Position numbers and translations under genes: made by a program. Below the pieces are notes generated by a model. The model worked only from the letters and a program-made list of their open reading frames with translations. It was not told where the DNA came from and did no database searches. Positions 15,759 to 38,811 of a stretch of 40,931 nt of DNA are shown here, in pieces (the first letter of the stretch is position 1; every line of letters starts with the position of its first letter). Origin of the DNA: Dehalococcoidales bacterium (GTDB taxonomy: Bacteria; Chloroflexota; Dehalococcoidia; Dehalococcoidales; RBG-16-60-22); the NCBI GenBank assembly GCA_028714335.1, contig JAQTMM010000010.1, positions 1 through 40,931 of the forward strand. The letters run 5' to 3'.

Positions 15759-16727
15759 TTATTTCACCCTCCAACAGGATACGGAGCGATTTTCGCCAAT
15801 CTTTACCTCAGGCGGTTCCTGTTCCTTGCAGATATCCATGGAAACAGTGCAGCGGGGATAGAAACGGCAGCCTTTAGGTAAGCGTAACAGTGACGGCGGC
15901 TGGCCTTCAATGGAGAATAACCGCTCATCTTTTTTATCTAATTGAGGCACGGATTGAATCAACGCTTTAGTGTAAGGATGCTTGGGGTTTTTAAAGATAT
16001 CTCGCGTTGAAGCAGTTTCAACAATTTTCCCGGCGTACATTACGCCAACTCTATCGCATATCCTGGCGACGACGCCGAAGTCATGCGTAATGAAAATAAT
16101 AGCAACGTTGGTTTTTTCCTGGATGTCTTCAAACAGAGCGATATACTGGGCTTGAATCGTAGCATCCAGGGCGGTCGTAGGCTCATCGGCAATCAGCAGA
16201 CGGGGCCGGCAGGACATGGCAATAGCGCCTACCGCTCTTTGCCTCATGCCGCCGCTAAGCTGGAAAGGATATTCCCTGGCACGCATTTCTGGTGAGGGAA
16301 TTCTTAACAGCCTTAAAGCGTCGATCACTTCGGCTTCCACCATATTCTCGGGGAGGTCCTGGTGCAAACGTACCGATTCACCAATCTGGTCGCCGATGGT
16401 ATAAACGGGATTCAGTGATGACATCGGGTCCTGTAAAATCATAGATATCATCTTGCCCCGGTAGGCTCTCATTTGCTTGGGGTTAAGCTCAAGGAGGCTC
16501 TTGCCCTCCATGATGATTTTACCACCAACTACCTGTCCGGCGGGTTCTGGTAAAAGACGCAAAATAGACAGGCCAGTTACGGACTTGCCGCAGCCGGATT
16601 CTCCCACAATCCCAAAGGTTTCGCCTTCTCTTACGTAGAAGCTAACGCCGTCAACGGCTTTAACTTCACCGGCACGGGTAAAGAATGAGGTGTGTAGGTC
16701 TTCAACTTGTAATACAATATTGCTCAT
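15759..16727 (-). CDS. Peptide ABC transporter ATP-binding protein (OppD/DppD-like)
   Basis: GESGCGKS, LSGGMRQR, LLIADEPTTALD. Confidence 0.93.
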   Translation of the reverse strand: MSNIVLQVEDLHTSFFTRAGEVKAVDGVSFYVREGETFGIVGESGCGKSVTGLSILRLLPEPAGQVVGGKIIMEGKSLLELNPKQMRAYRGKMISMILQDPMSSLNPVYTIGDQIGESVRLHQDLPENMVEAEVIDALRLLRIPSPEMRAREYPFQLSGGMRQRAVGAIAMSCRPRLLIADEPTTALDATIQAQYIALFEDIQEKTNVAIIFITHDFGVVARICDRVGVMYAGKIVETASTRDIFKNPKHPYTKALIQSVPQLDKKDERLFSIEGQPPSLLRLPKGCRFYPRCTVSMDICKEQEPPEVKIGENRSVSCWRVK

Positions 16728-25559: not shown

Positions 25560-25629
25560 TAATTAGTAACCAGTTGTCCTGCGCCTTTCATCCCTTGCTT
25601 TTAACATTATCGTGTGTTAACATAAACTA

Positions 25630-25888
25630 AAGGCTGTGACGGAGAAGAGTAGGGGCGGCAACGAGTATCCAGCGAGTCTGGCAAGGTGGAAGCAGATATA
25701 CTCCCCGCTTTGAAAATCCCTCCCGAGCCTCCGGCTGAAAACCTTGAATGAGTAAGCCCGGACGGACCCGTCAACCGTTAACCGTGACGAGGGCATCAAA
25801 GGTGTCCTTAAAGAGTGCCCCGTTTTTTGGGGAATTTGGGTGGTACCGCGGAGCTTTAAGCCTCGTCCCTTAGAGACGAGGCTTTTTT
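25630..25888 (+). promoter_or_regulatory. T-box riboswitch upstream of ileS
   Basis: T-box core gggtggtaccgcgg (25838-25851), terminator aagcctcgtccctta gagacgaggctttttt, Stem I gacggagaagagtag motif, candidate ATC specifier near 25716-25718. Confidence 0.92.
25859..25888 (+). terminator. T-box-controlled terminator for ileS
   Basis: gcctcgtc/gacgaggc stem followed by tttttt. Confidence 0.9.
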
Positions 25889-32463: not shown

Positions 32464-33653
32464 TCCTTCATCCCCAAAGCCTGTGTAACGATGCCCAAAT
32501 CCTTATCCCCTCGCCCCGAAAGATTCACGATAATCAGTTTGTCCTTGCTCAAATCTTTGGCCATTTTTACGGCGTAATATATGGCGTGGGCGGATTCTAA
32601 AGCGGGGATAATCCCCTCTGTATTGCTAAGCAGTTTAAATCCTTCCAGCGTTTCTTCGTCGTTCACCGCAACATAGGTGGCGCGGTCGCTGTCTTTGTAG
32701 AAACTGTGCTCCGGCCCCACTCCCGGATAATCCAGCCCGGCGGAGATGCTGTGCGTCTCCATAATCTGCCCGTGCTCGTCCTCCATCAGGTAGCTCTTGG
32801 TGCCGTGCAGTACGCCAACCTTGCCGGTAGCTAAAGTGGCGCTGTGCTTGCCGGTTTTCAAACCCAACCCCCCCGCTTCCACCCCGATGAATTTGACGTC
32901 TTTATCATTGTAAAAAGGATGGAAAAGCCCAATGCTGTTGCTGCCGCCGCCCACGCATGCCACCAAATAATCCGGCAGGCGGTTGTAGGCTTTAAGCACC
33001 TGTGCCCTGGCTTCCCGCCCGATGATTGCCTGGAAGTCGCGGACTATCATTGGGTAGGGGTGCGGCCCGACCACCGAGCCCAATAAATAGTGGGTGTCTT
33101 TAACGTTACTCACCCAGTCACGTATCGCCTCGTTAATGGCGTCTTTAAGCGTCCGACTGCCGGAATCCACCGGGCGGACTTCGGCGTTCATTAGCTTCAT
33201 GCGTTGGACGTTGGGCGCCTGTCGCTTAATGTCCTCCGTCCCCATATAAACAATGCACTCCAGGTCTAGCATCGCACAGACGGTCGCCGTGGCAACGCCG
33301 TGCTGGCCTGCCCCTGTCTCAGCAATAATGCGCGTTTTGCCCATCCGCTTGGCTAGCAGACCCTGCCCCAGCGCGTTGTTGATTTTGTGCGCTCCGGTAT
33401 GCGCCAGGTCCTCACGCTTTAGGAGTATAATCGCCCCGCCGGACTTCTTTGTCAGTTGTTCAGCATAATACAGCGGCGTCGGCCGCCCGATAAAGTCCTT
33501 ACACAATTGGTCGAATTGCTTTTGGAAAGCCGCGTCGGCCAAAGCGTCGGCGTAAGCGCCTTCCAGTTCCGCCAGCGCCGGCATCAGCGTTTCTGGCACG
33601 AACTTGCCGCCGTAATTACCGAAGTACCCGCTAACATCAGGCCTACATGGCAT
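32460..33653 (-). CDS. trpB: Tryptophan synthase beta chain
   Basis: [55 protein letters not shown]. Confidence 0.97.
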
Positions 33654-34296
33654 CGGCTTGCCTCACTGCTTCAATAAACTTCACGATTTTTTTCATATCT
33701 TTAACGCCCCTCGTTTCCACCCCGCTGGATACGTCAACGCCCCAGGGCTTTAGTGTTTCTATCGCCTTTCCCACATTACTCGGTTTAAGACCGCCGGCAA
33801 TGATGATGTGGTCGTGTTTAGCTACTATCGGTTCAGCGAGTTTCCACGGAAATGTTCTGCCCGTCCCTCCGAAGAATCCCTTGACGGCGGTATCGAGTAG
33901 CACCAGGTATTGGCCGTCAAACTTCAACTTTTTACCCTCGTTGATTTTCTCTATCGTGGTTAGCGTATTACGTCTGGCGCACTTAATGGCTTTAATAAAG
34001 GGCTTGCCCAGTTCCCGGCAATACGCCCAGCTTTCGTCGCCGCTCAACTGTATCCAGTCTAGCCCGCATTTATCAGCTATTTTTCTAACGGTGGCTAAAG
34101 GCGTGTTGACGAACACCCCCACCGATTTTGTTCTGGCTTTATTTTTCTTCAGCGCGGCAGTTATTTTTGCGGCGGTTTTAGGTGTGATTTGCCGTCGGCT
34201 GGGCGCAAAAACCAGCCCGATAAAGTCCGCCCCGGCATCCGCCACCTTCATGGCGACGTCCTCGCTTTTTATACCGCAAATCTTGATGTGTGTCAT
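33643..34296 (-). CDS. trpF: Phosphoribosylanthranilate isomerase
   Basis: [34 protein letters not shown]. Confidence 0.95.
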
Positions 34297-35069
34297 GCCA
34301 GCAGTTCCTTCATCTTGGCGGGTATATCTTTCGCCGTCACCAAAGCCTCGCCGACTAGTACGGCGTTAACCTTGCACTCCTTCATTTTCTTCATATCGTC
34401 GGCGGTGCTGATGCCGCTTTCGCTAACGACGATGTTTTCCGCCGGAATCAGCATCCTCAAGCGCCGCGTGGTGTTGGTGTCCACTTTAAATGTCTCCAGG
34501 TTCCGGTTGTTAATCCCGATAATCTCCGCCCCAGCCAGCATCGCTTTAAATAATTCTTCCTCGTTATGCACCTCAACGAGGCAGTCCAGTTTTAGATTAT
34601 TGGCAATGCCTAATAGTTCTTCTAAAACTTCTGTTTCCAGTATCGCTGTAATCAGTAAAATAGCGTCGGCGCCATAAGCGGCGGACTCGTAAACCTGGTA
34701 CGCGTCAAAGATAAAGTCCTTCCGCAATAGAGGGACGTTGACCTTTTCTCTTATCTCTGCTAAATATTCCAAACTCCCCAAAAAGTTCTTTTCTTCCGTC
34801 AGCACGGATATCGCGGCCACGCCGTGTTTTTCATAAGTCTGCGCTAACTCCACTGGCTTAAAATCCGGGCAAAGCAGTCCCTTGGACGGTGACGCTTTTT
34901 TAACCTCGGCGATGAGTTTTACGCCGTTGCCATTTAGCGCCCCCGCAAAGCTGTGCAGTTTACGTTGGGAGATGCGTTCCTGCAAAACCGACAAAGGCAT
35001 CTGTTGCTTAGCCAGCTTTAACGCCTCCCGTTTATCCCCCACGATTTTATCCAGTATCGTTGAAGCCAT
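34293..35069 (-). CDS. trpC: Indole-3-glycerol phosphate synthase
   Basis: LIAEVKKASPSKGLL, LRKDFIFDAYQVYESAAYGADAILLI, VSESGIST. Confidence 0.96.
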   Translation of the reverse strand: MASTILDKIVGDKREALKLAKQQMPLSVLQERISQRKLHSFAGALNGNGVKLIAEVKKASPSKGLLCPDFKPVELAQTYEKHGVAAISVLTEEKNFLGSLEYLAEIREKVNVPLLRKDFIFDAYQVYESAAYGADAILLITAILETEVLEELLGIANNLKLDCLVEVHNEEELFKAMLAGAEIIGINNRNLETFKVDTNTTRRLRMLIPAENIVVSESGISTADDMKKMKECKVNAVLVGEALVTAKDIPAKMKELLA

Positions 35070-35070
35070 G

Positions 35071-36087
35071 TTATTTCAAATTCCGGCTTAATGTAGCCAG
35101 CCTTTCGAGCTTTCCTTTCGCCTTGCCGCTATCAATTGATTCTTCCGCAATTTCCACGCCTTCTTTAAGGTCTTTAGTGACGTCCCCGGCTACTAACGCG
35201 GCGGCGGCATTCATCACCACCATGTCCCTTAGGACGCTTTTTTCCCCGCCCAGAATCCGGTTTAATAATGAGGCATTTTCCTGCGGTGTGCCGCCCTTCA
35301 CCTCACTGATGTCCGCCTTGCTGAACCCAAAGTTTTTAGGCGTGACTTCATACGGTGAGGATAACTTATCTTTAGTGATGTCCCAGATAACGGATTTGCC
35401 GGTTATCGAAATTTCATCCAGCCCGTCTTTGCCGTGCACTACCAGCGCGTGCTTGATTCCCAGACGCTTTAGGACGGCGGCAATTTTTGAGCCGATGTCT
35501 TCGCTCGGCACACCGAGGAGGATATGCTCCACCTGTGCCGGATTGGTTAATGGGCCAAGGATATTAAAAATAGTGCGGATGCCGATTTCTTTACGCACCG
35601 GTGCGGCGTATCTCATCGCCGGGTGGAATGCCTGCGCGAACATGAAACCGATGCCCGCATTCTCGATGCACTCGGTAACACTGTCCGCGCTCAATTCAAT
35701 CTTTACCCCCAGCGCCTCCAATATATCGGCGCTGCCGCAATTGCTGGACATGGCGCGGTTGCCGTGCTTAGCGACTTTTAAGCCAGCCCCCGCCACCACA
35801 AACGCCGCCGCGGTAGAGATATTGAATGTTGCCGCCCCGTCACCCCCAGTCCCCACGATATCTATAGCTGGGCCCTTAATTTTTACTGGGGTGGCTTTAG
35901 CGCGCATCACCGTTGCCAGCCCGGCGATTTCATCGGCGGTTTCGCCCTTTAATCGTAATGCGGTTAAAAAGGCGCCGACCTGCGCCGGTGTTGCCTCCCC
36001 GCCCATGATTTCACCCATCACAAAATAGGCTTCTTCGTAGCTTAAATTCTTGCCTTCTACCAGAGCCCCGATTGCTTCTTTAATCAT
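35071..36087 (-). CDS. trpD: Anthranilate phosphoribosyltransferase
   Basis: DIVGTGGDGAATFNISTAAAFVVAGAGLKVAKHGNRAMSSNCGSADILEALG. Confidence 0.96.
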   Translation of the reverse strand: MIKEAIGALVEGKNLSYEEAYFVMGEIMGGEATPAQVGAFLTALRLKGETADEIAGLATVMRAKATPVKIKGPAIDIVGTGGDGAATFNISTAAAFVVAGAGLKVAKHGNRAMSSNCGSADILEALGVKIELSADSVTECIENAGIGFMFAQAFHPAMRYAAPVRKEIGIRTIFNILGPLTNPAQVEHILLGVPSEDIGSKIAAVLKRLGIKHALVVHGKDGLDEISITGKSVIWDITKDKLSSPYEVTPKNFGFSKADISEVKGGTPQENASLLNRILGGEKSVLRDMVVMNAAAALVAGDVTKDLKEGVEIAEESIDSGKAKGKLERLATLSRNLK

Positions 36088-36143
36088 TTACCCGATTCCT
36101 TTCCTCGCCTCTCCCTTTCATAAAGGGAGACTAAGAGGGTTTT

Positions 36144-36713
36144 TTACAATCCCTTCCTCAAAAAGTTATCCAATATTTTCTTCCCCTCCCCCGTCATAAT
36201 GCTCTCCGGGTGGAACTGTACGCCCTCCACTGGATACTGGCGGTGGCGCAGCCCCATGATAATCTTGTTCTCTGTCACGGCGCTGATGTCCAGGCAGTCC
36301 GGGAACTTGTCCCTCTGTACCGCCAGCGAGTGATAACGCACCGCCGCGAAGGGATTTTTTACGCCCTGGAAGACGCCTTTGTCGTCGTGCTGTATCATCG
36401 AGGTCTTGCCGTGCTTTATCTCACCGGCGTGGTCCACCTTGCCGCCGTACGCCTGACCGATGCACTGGTGTCCCAGGCAGACGCCCAGTATTGGCGTCCT
36501 TTCCCCGAACCTTAAAATCACATCGTTAGAAATCCCCGCGTCCTCCGGTTTCCCCGGCCCCGGCGAGATTACAATTCGTTCCGGCTGCATCTTTTCAATC
36601 TCGTCCAGCGTTATCTTGTCATTGCGCGCCACCTTAACCACCTGCCCCAGTTCACACAGGTACTGATAGAGGTTGTAGGTGAAGCTGTCGTAATTATCAA
36701 TCAGTAAAAGCAT
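36144..36713 (-). CDS. trpG: Anthranilate synthase component II (glutamine amidotransferase)
   Basis: LLLIDNYDSFTYNLYQYL, SPGPGKPEDAG, GVCLGHQ; ATG at 36713 overlaps the trpE stop (TGATG). Confidence 0.95.
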   Translation of the reverse strand: MLLLIDNYDSFTYNLYQYLCELGQVVKVARNDKITLDEIEKMQPERIVISPGPGKPEDAGISNDVILRFGERTPILGVCLGHQCIGQAYGGKVDHAGEIKHGKTSMIQHDDKGVFQGVKNPFAAVRYHSLAVQRDKFPDCLDISAVTENKIIMGLRHRQYPVEGVQFHPESIMTGEGKKILDNFLRKGL

Positions 36714-38137
36714 CAATCGCCCTCCGCTTGCGCTATCGCCGAAAGCGTCGCTTGCATTTTGTTGAGGCACTCGCGGTATTCGTTAGCCGGGATGGAATCC
36801 GCCACGATGCCCGCGCCCGCCTGCACGTAAGCTGTCCCGTCTTTAATGATGATGGTGCGGATGCCGATGGCAGTATCTATGTTGCCGGAGAAATCAAAGT
36901 AGCCCACCGCGCCGGCGTAAGGCCCGCGCTTATCCGGCTCAAGGTCAGCGATGATTTCCATAGCGCGTATCTTGGGCGCGCCGGAGACCGTTCCTGCTGG
37001 AAAGCAGGCGCGTAAAGCGTCGTACTGCGTTAGCCCCTCCCTTAATTTCCCCTGCACGTGAGAGACTATATGCATCACGTGGGAGTAGCGCTCGATGTCC
37101 ATGAATTGTGTTACCTCCACCGTGCCCGGCTCGCTGATGCGCCCCACGTCGTTGCGGGCAAGGTCTACCAGCATCACATGCTCGGCGCGTTCCTTTTCGT
37201 CGCCCTTGAGTTCCTCCTCCAGCGCTTTGTCGTCGCCATTGTCTTTACCGCGTGGGCGCGTCCCGGCGATGGGGTGGTTGGAAACGATGCCGTCTTCCAC
37301 ACGGACTAATAATTCCGGTGACGCCCCGACGATATAGATGTCGTCGAGGTGGAGGAAATACATATAAGGGGAGGGATTTATCGAACGTAAAGCGCGGTAG
37401 ATGGCAAAGGGGCTGGCTTTAGTCGGTTTGCCCAATCTTAACGATGGCACGCCCTGGATGATGTCGCCTTCGTAGATGTGTTTTTTCATCTTGGTGACGA
37501 TTTCTTCATATTGCGCCTGCGTCAGGTTCTGCGTTTCTTTAGTATTGTTATTGTTGTTTTGCACCGGTTGCTCTACCGGTAAAGGTTTCTTGAGCCTTGC
37601 CACCAGACTGTCTATTTTCTCTTTGGCTTCCTGGTAGCTTTTTTCTATATCGCCGTCGAGGTAGGCGTGCGCCACCACCTTTATCTTGTGCGCCAGGTGG
37701 TCGAAGACTAAAAGCGTATCCGCCAGCATCATGCGGGTTTCCGGCAGCTTTAAGGGGTCGGCGGCAGGAGAGGGGAGTTCTTCAAAATACCGTGCCACCT
37801 CATAACTTAAATACCCCACCATCCCCCCGTGGAAGCGCGGCAGCCCGTCCACCGCTATCGGCTTAAATTTCTTGAACTCCTTTTCAATAACCAGTAGCGG
37901 GTCGCCGCCGTCGGTGGATATCACTTTAGACGGCTCCGTCCCCAAGAAGCTGTAGCGCGCCAGCCTTTCGCCGCCCTCGACGCTTTCCAGCAAGAACGAA
38001 TAGTTGCCGCGCGTAATCTTCAGATACGCCGAAACCGGCGTCTCCATGTCCGCGTTAATTTCGCGGTACACCGGCAGCAGGTTGCCCTGGTTCTTTAGTT
38101 TCTTCGCTTCTTCTAAACTTGGTTTATACATATTCAC
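36713..38137 (-). CDS. trpE: Anthranilate synthase component I
   Basis: PSPYMYFLHL, SPELLVRVEDGIVSNHPIAGTRPRG, FPAGTVSGAPKIRAMEII. Confidence 0.96.
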   Translation of the reverse strand: MNMYKPSLEEAKKLKNQGNLLPVYREINADMETPVSAYLKITRGNYSFLLESVEGGERLARYSFLGTEPSKVISTDGGDPLLVIEKEFKKFKPIAVDGLPRFHGGMVGYLSYEVARYFEELPSPAADPLKLPETRMMLADTLLVFDHLAHKIKVVAHAYLDGDIEKSYQEAKEKIDSLVARLKKPLPVEQPVQNNNNNTKETQNLTQAQYEEIVTKMKKHIYEGDIIQGVPSLRLGKPTKASPFAIYRALRSINPSPYMYFLHLDDIYIVGASPELLVRVEDGIVSNHPIAGTRPRGKDNGDDKALEEELKGDEKERAEHVMLVDLARNDVGRISEPGTVEVTQFMDIERYSHVMHIVSHVQGKLREGLTQYDALRACFPAGTVSGAPKIRAMEIIADLEPDKRGPYAGAVGYFDFSGNIDTAIGIRTIIIKDGTAYVQAGAGIVADSIPANEYRECLNKMQATLSAIAQAEGD

Positions 38138-38226
38138 TCACTAAAATAAAAAACCCCCGTCCCATAAAAGGGGCGGAGGTTATAGCTTCCGCGGTGCCAC
38201 CCTAATTATCCTTCTACTATAAAGAC

Positions 38227-38250
38227 CTTGTCCTGAGCGAAGTCGAAGGA
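38227..38250 (+). repeat. 24-nt dispersed repeat unit
   Basis: cttgtcctgagcgaagtcgaagga. Confidence 0.8.
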
Positions 38251-38358
38251 TATCTCTGCGAGTACAGCCTGCCCGCCGGAACTTCAGTGTAGGCGGGTCT
38301 TAAACGATACCCCGGGCTCTGTTAACGCTGCCCTTGCGTCAAAGCCTACTACCCATAA

Positions 38359-38419
38359 CTTGCTCGAACGACTTGTCCCGAGCGTGGTCGAAGGACTTGT
38401 CTCGAGCGTGGTCGAGGGA
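38359..38419 (+). repeat. Tandem array: truncated unit plus two abutting 24-nt dispersed repeat units
   Basis: cttgctcgaacga | cttgtcccgagcgtggtcgaagga | cttgtctcgagcgtggtcgaggga. Confidence 0.85.
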
Positions 38420-38588
38420 TTCGGTTTGCGGCTCCCAGGTCCATTCAGTTCTAGCGTTGGCGTCGGACTCACACCTTACCCGACTCTCTGAAGCCCCGCT
38501 TTAGGACTTACTACTCCTGTTCACAGCCTTTACATAATTCAGTTGTATCTAATTTATCATGGATAAAGGGGGGTTGTCAAGGGTTTTT

Positions 38589-38675: not shown

Positions 38676-38702
38676 TGTCATTCTGAGCATAACGAAGAAT
38701 CT
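38676..38702 (+). repeat. Dispersed intergenic repeat (TGTCATTCTGAGC..AACGAAGAATCT type)
   Basis: tgtcattctgagcataacgaagaatct, structurally related to other units nearby. Confidence 0.6.
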
Positions 38703-38710
38703 TGTTTCCC

Positions 38711-38737
38711 TGTCATTCCAGCGCAGGCTGGAATCCA
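38711..38737 (+). repeat. Dispersed palindromic repeat (TGTCATTCCAGC-GCAG-GCTGGAATCCA)
   Basis: 8-bp perfect inverted repeat attccagc/gctggaat with 4-nt loop. Confidence 0.65.
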
Positions 38738-38787
38738 CTTAATGCCTTCTCTTTTTTGGGGGTATTGGCTCTCCCTTTGAAAAAGAG

Positions 38788-38811
38788 CCTGTCATGAGCG
38801 TAGTCGAAGGA
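38788..38811 (+). repeat. 24-nt dispersed repeat unit
   Basis: cctgtcatgagcgtagtcgaagga, same family as 38227 and 38372. Confidence 0.75.

Follow-up and report, generated by a model that had tools for sequence, protein, structure and literature searches.

Palindromic elements have been described inside structured RNAs before. RPE palindromes of 105-146 bp lie within the tmRNA and RNase P RNA genes of Rickettsia (Ogata et al. 2002, as cited in PMC2229807), where by that secondary account their effect is presumed neutral, and STRR sequences, short tandem repeats, are placed in rnpB of heterocystous cyanobacteria by a title cited in PMC2858038 (Vioque 1997). REP and REPIN elements are dispersed palindromic repeats of 20-40 bp, some of them in arrays, and are associated with RAYT transposases (PMC3733652, PMC3116915); a passage in PMC2817692 puts REP copy number usually at over 100 per genome. 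Among T-boxes, those of Dehalococcoides are known for ileS, trpE and trpB-like genes (PMC2494555), and insertions into T-boxes are called curious and unexplained in a passage of a 2020 review (PMC7583486). Our search of the open-access literature returned no report of dispersed repeats inside a T-box.

Here we analyse a trp T-box leader in a stretch of 40,931 nt from a Dehalococcoidales bacterium (the window), in which, in contrast to known T-boxes, the Stem II apical arm and the Stem III loop are built from a dispersed genomic repeat. We are confident, on comparison of sequences, that it is a working trp T-box in which a dispersed, REP-like palindromic repeat has expanded the two arms that vary most. 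Like RPE, the repeat is a dispersed palindrome inside a structured RNA, but it consists of 24-nt tandem units and its host is a riboswitch; like STRR, it is a short tandem repeat within a functional RNA, but STRR concerns RNase P RNA, another repeat and another phylum. Palindromic elements in functional RNAs are already known, and by analogy with these cases a T-box host would be a new variant.

The trp leader and its core elements

The minus strand at 38166-38533 is a complete T-box (RF00230; cmscan, 103.3 bits against a gathering score of 93 bits, model positions 1-219 of 219) of the Trp class, sharing with that class Stem I, specifier, S-turn, IIA/B pseudoknot, Stem III, bulge and terminator. 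This bears out an earlier sequence-only reading of the locus, which had recognised a trp T-box with a TGG specifier in a GAA-NNN-ACC context and a terminator. The leader sits directly 5' of trpE (36713-38137, minus strand, from the ORF list) in a trpEGDCF-like operon, the trpG, trpD, trpC and trpF-like genes 3' of trpE (33643-36770, minus strand) being named by recognition of their translations and not by a family search. The trpE orthologues of two genomes of the same genus, G002 and G003, are 88% and 81% identical. The window shares both its trpE and its ileS targets with the Dehalococcoides T-boxes: a second T-box, at 25627-25873 on the plus strand, has an Ile specifier (ATC), lies 5' of an ileS-like frame, is of ordinary length and carries none of the 24-nt units.

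All parts of the trp leader that follow are on the minus strand. A putative sigma-70-type promoter, read from the sequence at 38551-38580, has TTGACA at 38580-38575 and a GATAAATT-like -10 box at about 38558-38551, and the TTGACA .. GATAAATT layout is also found 5' of the G002 and G003 leaders. The specifier codon TGG (38441-38443, context GAA-TGG-ACC) is common to the trp leaders compared and agrees with the amino acid of the regulated gene. Covariance-model alignment places the Stem II 5' side with its S-turn strand (AAA CC GAA) at 38420-38427 and, together with the relatives, the 3' side (S-turn strand AGTA, then GG C TTT) at 38341-38350; the Stem IIA/B pseudoknot (GACGC/GCGTT with GGGC/GCCC) lies at 38314-38340 by block comparison with G002 and other relatives. 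Between it and Stem III, fold and relatives place a linker hairpin CCCGCC..GGCGGG at 38272-38297, and the same two sources place Stem III (TATCCTTC..GAAGGATA, with an enlarged loop) at 38207-38252. The T-box sequence AGGGTGGCACC with its bulge TGGC follows at 38193-38203 (model alignment and relatives), and an intrinsic terminator (CCTCCGCCCC..GGGACGGGGG TTTTTT), evident from the sequence at 38145-38180, is retained in relatives. The linker hairpin looks repeat-like (CCCGCCTACACTGAAGTTCCGGCGGG, 38270-38297), yet it is single-copy in the assembly; as a candidate dispersed palindrome, CCGCCTACACTGAAGTTCCGGCGGG was rejected on the same ground, at up to 3 mismatches.

Comparison with the unit-free leader of G002 shows 103 of 110 identical positions in the Stem I block (94%) and 34 of 36 in the IIA/B pseudoknot block; the arms of the two leaders do not align. 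In many relatives the GGGC/GCCC of the pseudoknot becomes GGGG/TCCC. The Rfam scores of the same-genus unit-free orthologues are 116.2 (G002) and 103.5 (G003), and the model alignment marks one C-A mismatch in Stem I of the present leader. Promoter, specifier, S-turn, pseudoknot, T-box bulge and terminator are all conserved.

A 24-nt repeat in the Stem II and Stem III arms

Four matches to the unit TCCTTCGACNNNGCTCRGGACAAG at up to 3 mismatches occur in the window, against 0.00 in dinucleotide shuffles, all on the minus strand. Unit 1 (38396-38419, 2 mismatches) and the adjoining unit 2 (38372-38395, 0 mismatches) lie in the Stem II apical arm and unit 3 (38227-38250, 0 mismatches) in Stem III, at the coordinates that the sequence-only reading had given; a fourth copy (38788-38811, 2 mismatches) lies 5' of the promoter and was missing from that reading. 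The 13-nt TCGTTCGAGCAAG (38359-38371), which the reading had taken for a truncated unit, is plausibly a partial unit by sequence and fold: it abuts the array, but it is short. Two further palindromic repeats, GGATTCCAGCCTGCGCTGGAATGACA and ATTCTTCGTTATGCTCAGAATGACA, also absent from the reading, are found 5' of the trp promoter at 38676-38743 on the minus strand, and the cdsA-trpE intergenic region is packed with different repeats.

The unit is an imperfect palindrome, dispersed in the genome as had been anticipated: the assembly (1.74 Mb) holds 9 copies of TCCTTCGACNNNGCTCRGGACAAG at up to 2 mismatches with none for the reversed control, and 10 matches to a shorter unit core at up to 1 mismatch against 2 for a control, numbers that are lower bounds because the assembly is fragmented and about 89% complete. 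The copies are spread over several contigs, and for those outside the locus an open-frame test, made without gene calls, gave a mixed outcome. At one further site (L006, G000:C23, about 16057-16180) five units of the family follow one another head to tail, each exactly 24 nt from the next, which indicates that the unit multiplies in steps of that length. The four copies at the trp locus span 585 nt; since clusters of this kind are expected at about 2e-8 under uniform scatter, local duplication is favoured over four independent landings. The unit family is rare in this genus, and its core has 47 matches in G033 and 46 in G054, both of the same order. The same-genus genome G003 (L062) has a unit-like palindrome, CCCCGAGCGAAGCCGAGGGG, between the terminator and the trpE start, a separate insertion at a different site from the units described here.

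The sequence-only reading had placed the units in linkers. Alignment with the family model and with 27 other trp leaders instead puts the 2.5-unit array between the S-turn strands GAA and AGTA, as the Stem II apical arm, and unit 3 inside Stem III. None of these 27 leaders, two of them from the same genus, carries units at these sites, so the repeat-free orthologues called for as a check do exist. The Stem II apical segment measures 69 nt here against 10-35 nt in the relatives, in which it is short, variable in sequence and mostly a small hairpin; below it, compensating substitutions preserve the pairing at the base of Stem II (AAA/TTT here, CAG/CTG in G003, CCA/TGG in G034). A stem GTAGGC..GCCTAC proposed downstream of the array likewise finds no support on alignment: GTAGGC is the Stem II 3' side, facing CAAACC, GCCTAC belongs to the separate CCCGCC/GGCGGG hairpin, and the proposed pairing is kept in no relative.

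The predicted fold of the array is a single unbroken arm at -24.7 kcal/mol, a value equalled by 4 of 200 shuffles (z -2.4). In it the 13-nt partial unit pairs with the 3' half of unit 1, around unit 2, TCGAGC of the partial unit facing GCTCGA of unit 1. In silico removal of the units, with G002's loop in place of the array, lowered the predicted probability of the CC/GG closure of Stem II from 0.44 to 0.04 and that of the Stem II base from 0.07 to 0.01, and left the other core pairs tested unchanged; this is no more than a hint and the fold evidence is local, as whole-leader MFE folding recovers the T-box core poorly in this leader, G002 and G003. The expanded Stem II pattern had no other match in 156 genomes of the order, except one that has no T-box core nearby.

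In Stem III, the first six bases of unit 3 (TCCTTC) are the 5' strand, paired with GAAGGA, and the rest of the unit forms the loop. The corresponding stem of G002 is GGTCCTTC-CCATGTT-GAAGGACC, with a 7-nt loop; as it already has the TCCTTC strand, the strand is older than the unit, and this stretch may have been the point of entry for the unit by microhomology. Stem III is predicted to be as stable with the unit as in G002 (-13.8 kcal/mol each), the free unit hairpin reaching -3.1. A class-wide search for the unit in Stem III, 5' of the T-box sequence, returned this leader alone and four short look-alikes. The flanks of Stem III are GAGAT..AA, with A-T for G-C at the edge (A-T is also seen in G035, G052 and G059), and they resemble the discriminator-domain purine motif as given in a passage of PMC7583486.

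Over-long T-boxes in related genomes

The 107 T-box matches in 61 relatives have a median length of 266 nt, and just three of them are longer than 292 nt: this leader (368 nt), one in G033 (336 nt) and one in G015 (426 nt), the latter two below the gathering score of RF00230, with 92.2 and 85.3 bits. The G033 match (L048, G033:C84:7402-7737) is the trpE leader of a member of another family of the order, and its extra segment, which lies in the hairpin separating the IIA/B pseudoknot from Stem III, includes CTCCCCCTTTGAAAAAGGGAG, of which the G033 genome has 33 copies at up to 2 mismatches. It makes a second, independent case, in which another dispersed palindrome occupies a third hairpin. The G015 match (L047, G015:C24:11225-11650) is a leader of ileS, and a long palindromic insert stands ahead of or within its Stem III; the palindrome is ATTCCCGCGAAAGC..GGAATCC-like (TTCCCGCGAAAGC..GGAATCC type). 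Repeats of the GGAATCC type number 8 in G054, 3 in G002 and 1 each in G033 and the present genome, and in G015 occur only at the T-box; the insert as a whole element matches itself only, and we take the G015 leader as no more than a hint. Repeat-type palindromes are thus found in two, perhaps three, of three over-long T-boxes, a small sample picked by length.

Origin and consequences of the enlarged arms

Our analysis suggests that the unit entered the apical hairpin of Stem II and was then amplified in place by tandem duplications of 24 nt each. A unit would likewise have joined the Stem III hairpin, by insertion or by recombination, at the existing TCCTTC, so that its 5' end now acts as one strand of this stem. 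Its self-complementarity would let the array form one closed arm that prolongs Stem II past the S-turn and leaves the specifier, S-turn, pseudoknot and T-box bulge free. The leader would still read through when uncharged tRNA-Trp accumulates, with the repeats as tolerated passengers; we infer this retention of tRNA-Trp sensing, as we do the order of events and the route of insertion. No target-site duplication was identified at the units, and the genome, about 89% complete, has no match to the RAYT transposase family (PF01797); a link of the unit to RAYT was rejected, as no unit lies near four RAYT genes of relatives either. The unit shares with REP elements a short dispersed palindrome and resembles them, but it falls short of the full REP definition in this genome because no RAYT was found and copy number is low, at about 10 here compared with 46-47 copies of the unit core in related G033 and G054.

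Other readings of the locus have to be weighed against this one. The added arms could retune the switch, if the longer transcript delays RNA polymerase and the extended arm nucleates Stem II or contacts the tRNA, so that sensitivity to tRNA-Trp is changed and the repeats are exapted. In its favour, an in silico fold closes the CC/GG pairs of Stem II with a probability of 0.44 when the array is present and 0.04 when G002's loop replaces it, and the 2020 review proposes, in the passage referred to (PMC7583486), that insertions may give a T-box new points of contact with the tRNA. However, little weight can be placed on fold probabilities for RNAs of this kind, and the expanded Stem II is not conserved beyond this genome among the 156 of the order, the one other match being that without a T-box core; we regard retuning as unlikely. 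A decaying leader, in which repeats mark lost constraint, had been among the outcomes contemplated by the sequence-only reading, and the filling of much of the intergenic region by repeats and the C-A mismatch in Stem I would fit it. Yet the core elements are intact from promoter to terminator, Stem I is 94% identical to that of G002 and the Rfam score falls within the relatives' range, which makes decay very improbable.

We give the least credence to chance, by which the segments would be ordinary T-box stems that happen to resemble the dispersed unit. The G002 Stem III already has TCCTTC..GAAGGA, and the likeness of unit 3 is therefore partly ancestral, but full 24-nt matches with none expected in shuffles, two abutting copies, the five-copy array elsewhere in the genome and the lack of conservation of these segments among relatives all speak against it. 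The view that dispersed repeats have grown inside a structured riboregulator while its tRNA-reading parts were spared is upheld, and the best reading of the sequences is that this T-box still works and tolerates selfish palindromes in its variable arms, which have partly absorbed them. A broader proposal, that dispersed palindromes are a general source of T-box arms and insertions, recruited because they are pre-folded (here one end of a unit already supplies a strand of Stem III, and the array would extend Stem II and aid the S-turn helix), is possible but doubtful.

For the family at large, the locus points to a definite source for some, at least, of the T-box insertions that have gone unexplained. 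In each of two families of one order, a trp T-box holds a repeat of its own genome, and both the repeat and the peripheral hairpin that houses it differ between the two, so the origin of T-box insertions becomes a testable question, one that can be approached by comparing over-long T-boxes with the repeat content of their own genomes. Unit-bearing and unit-free sister leaders, in turn, form a natural comparison for which arms of a riboswitch can grow.
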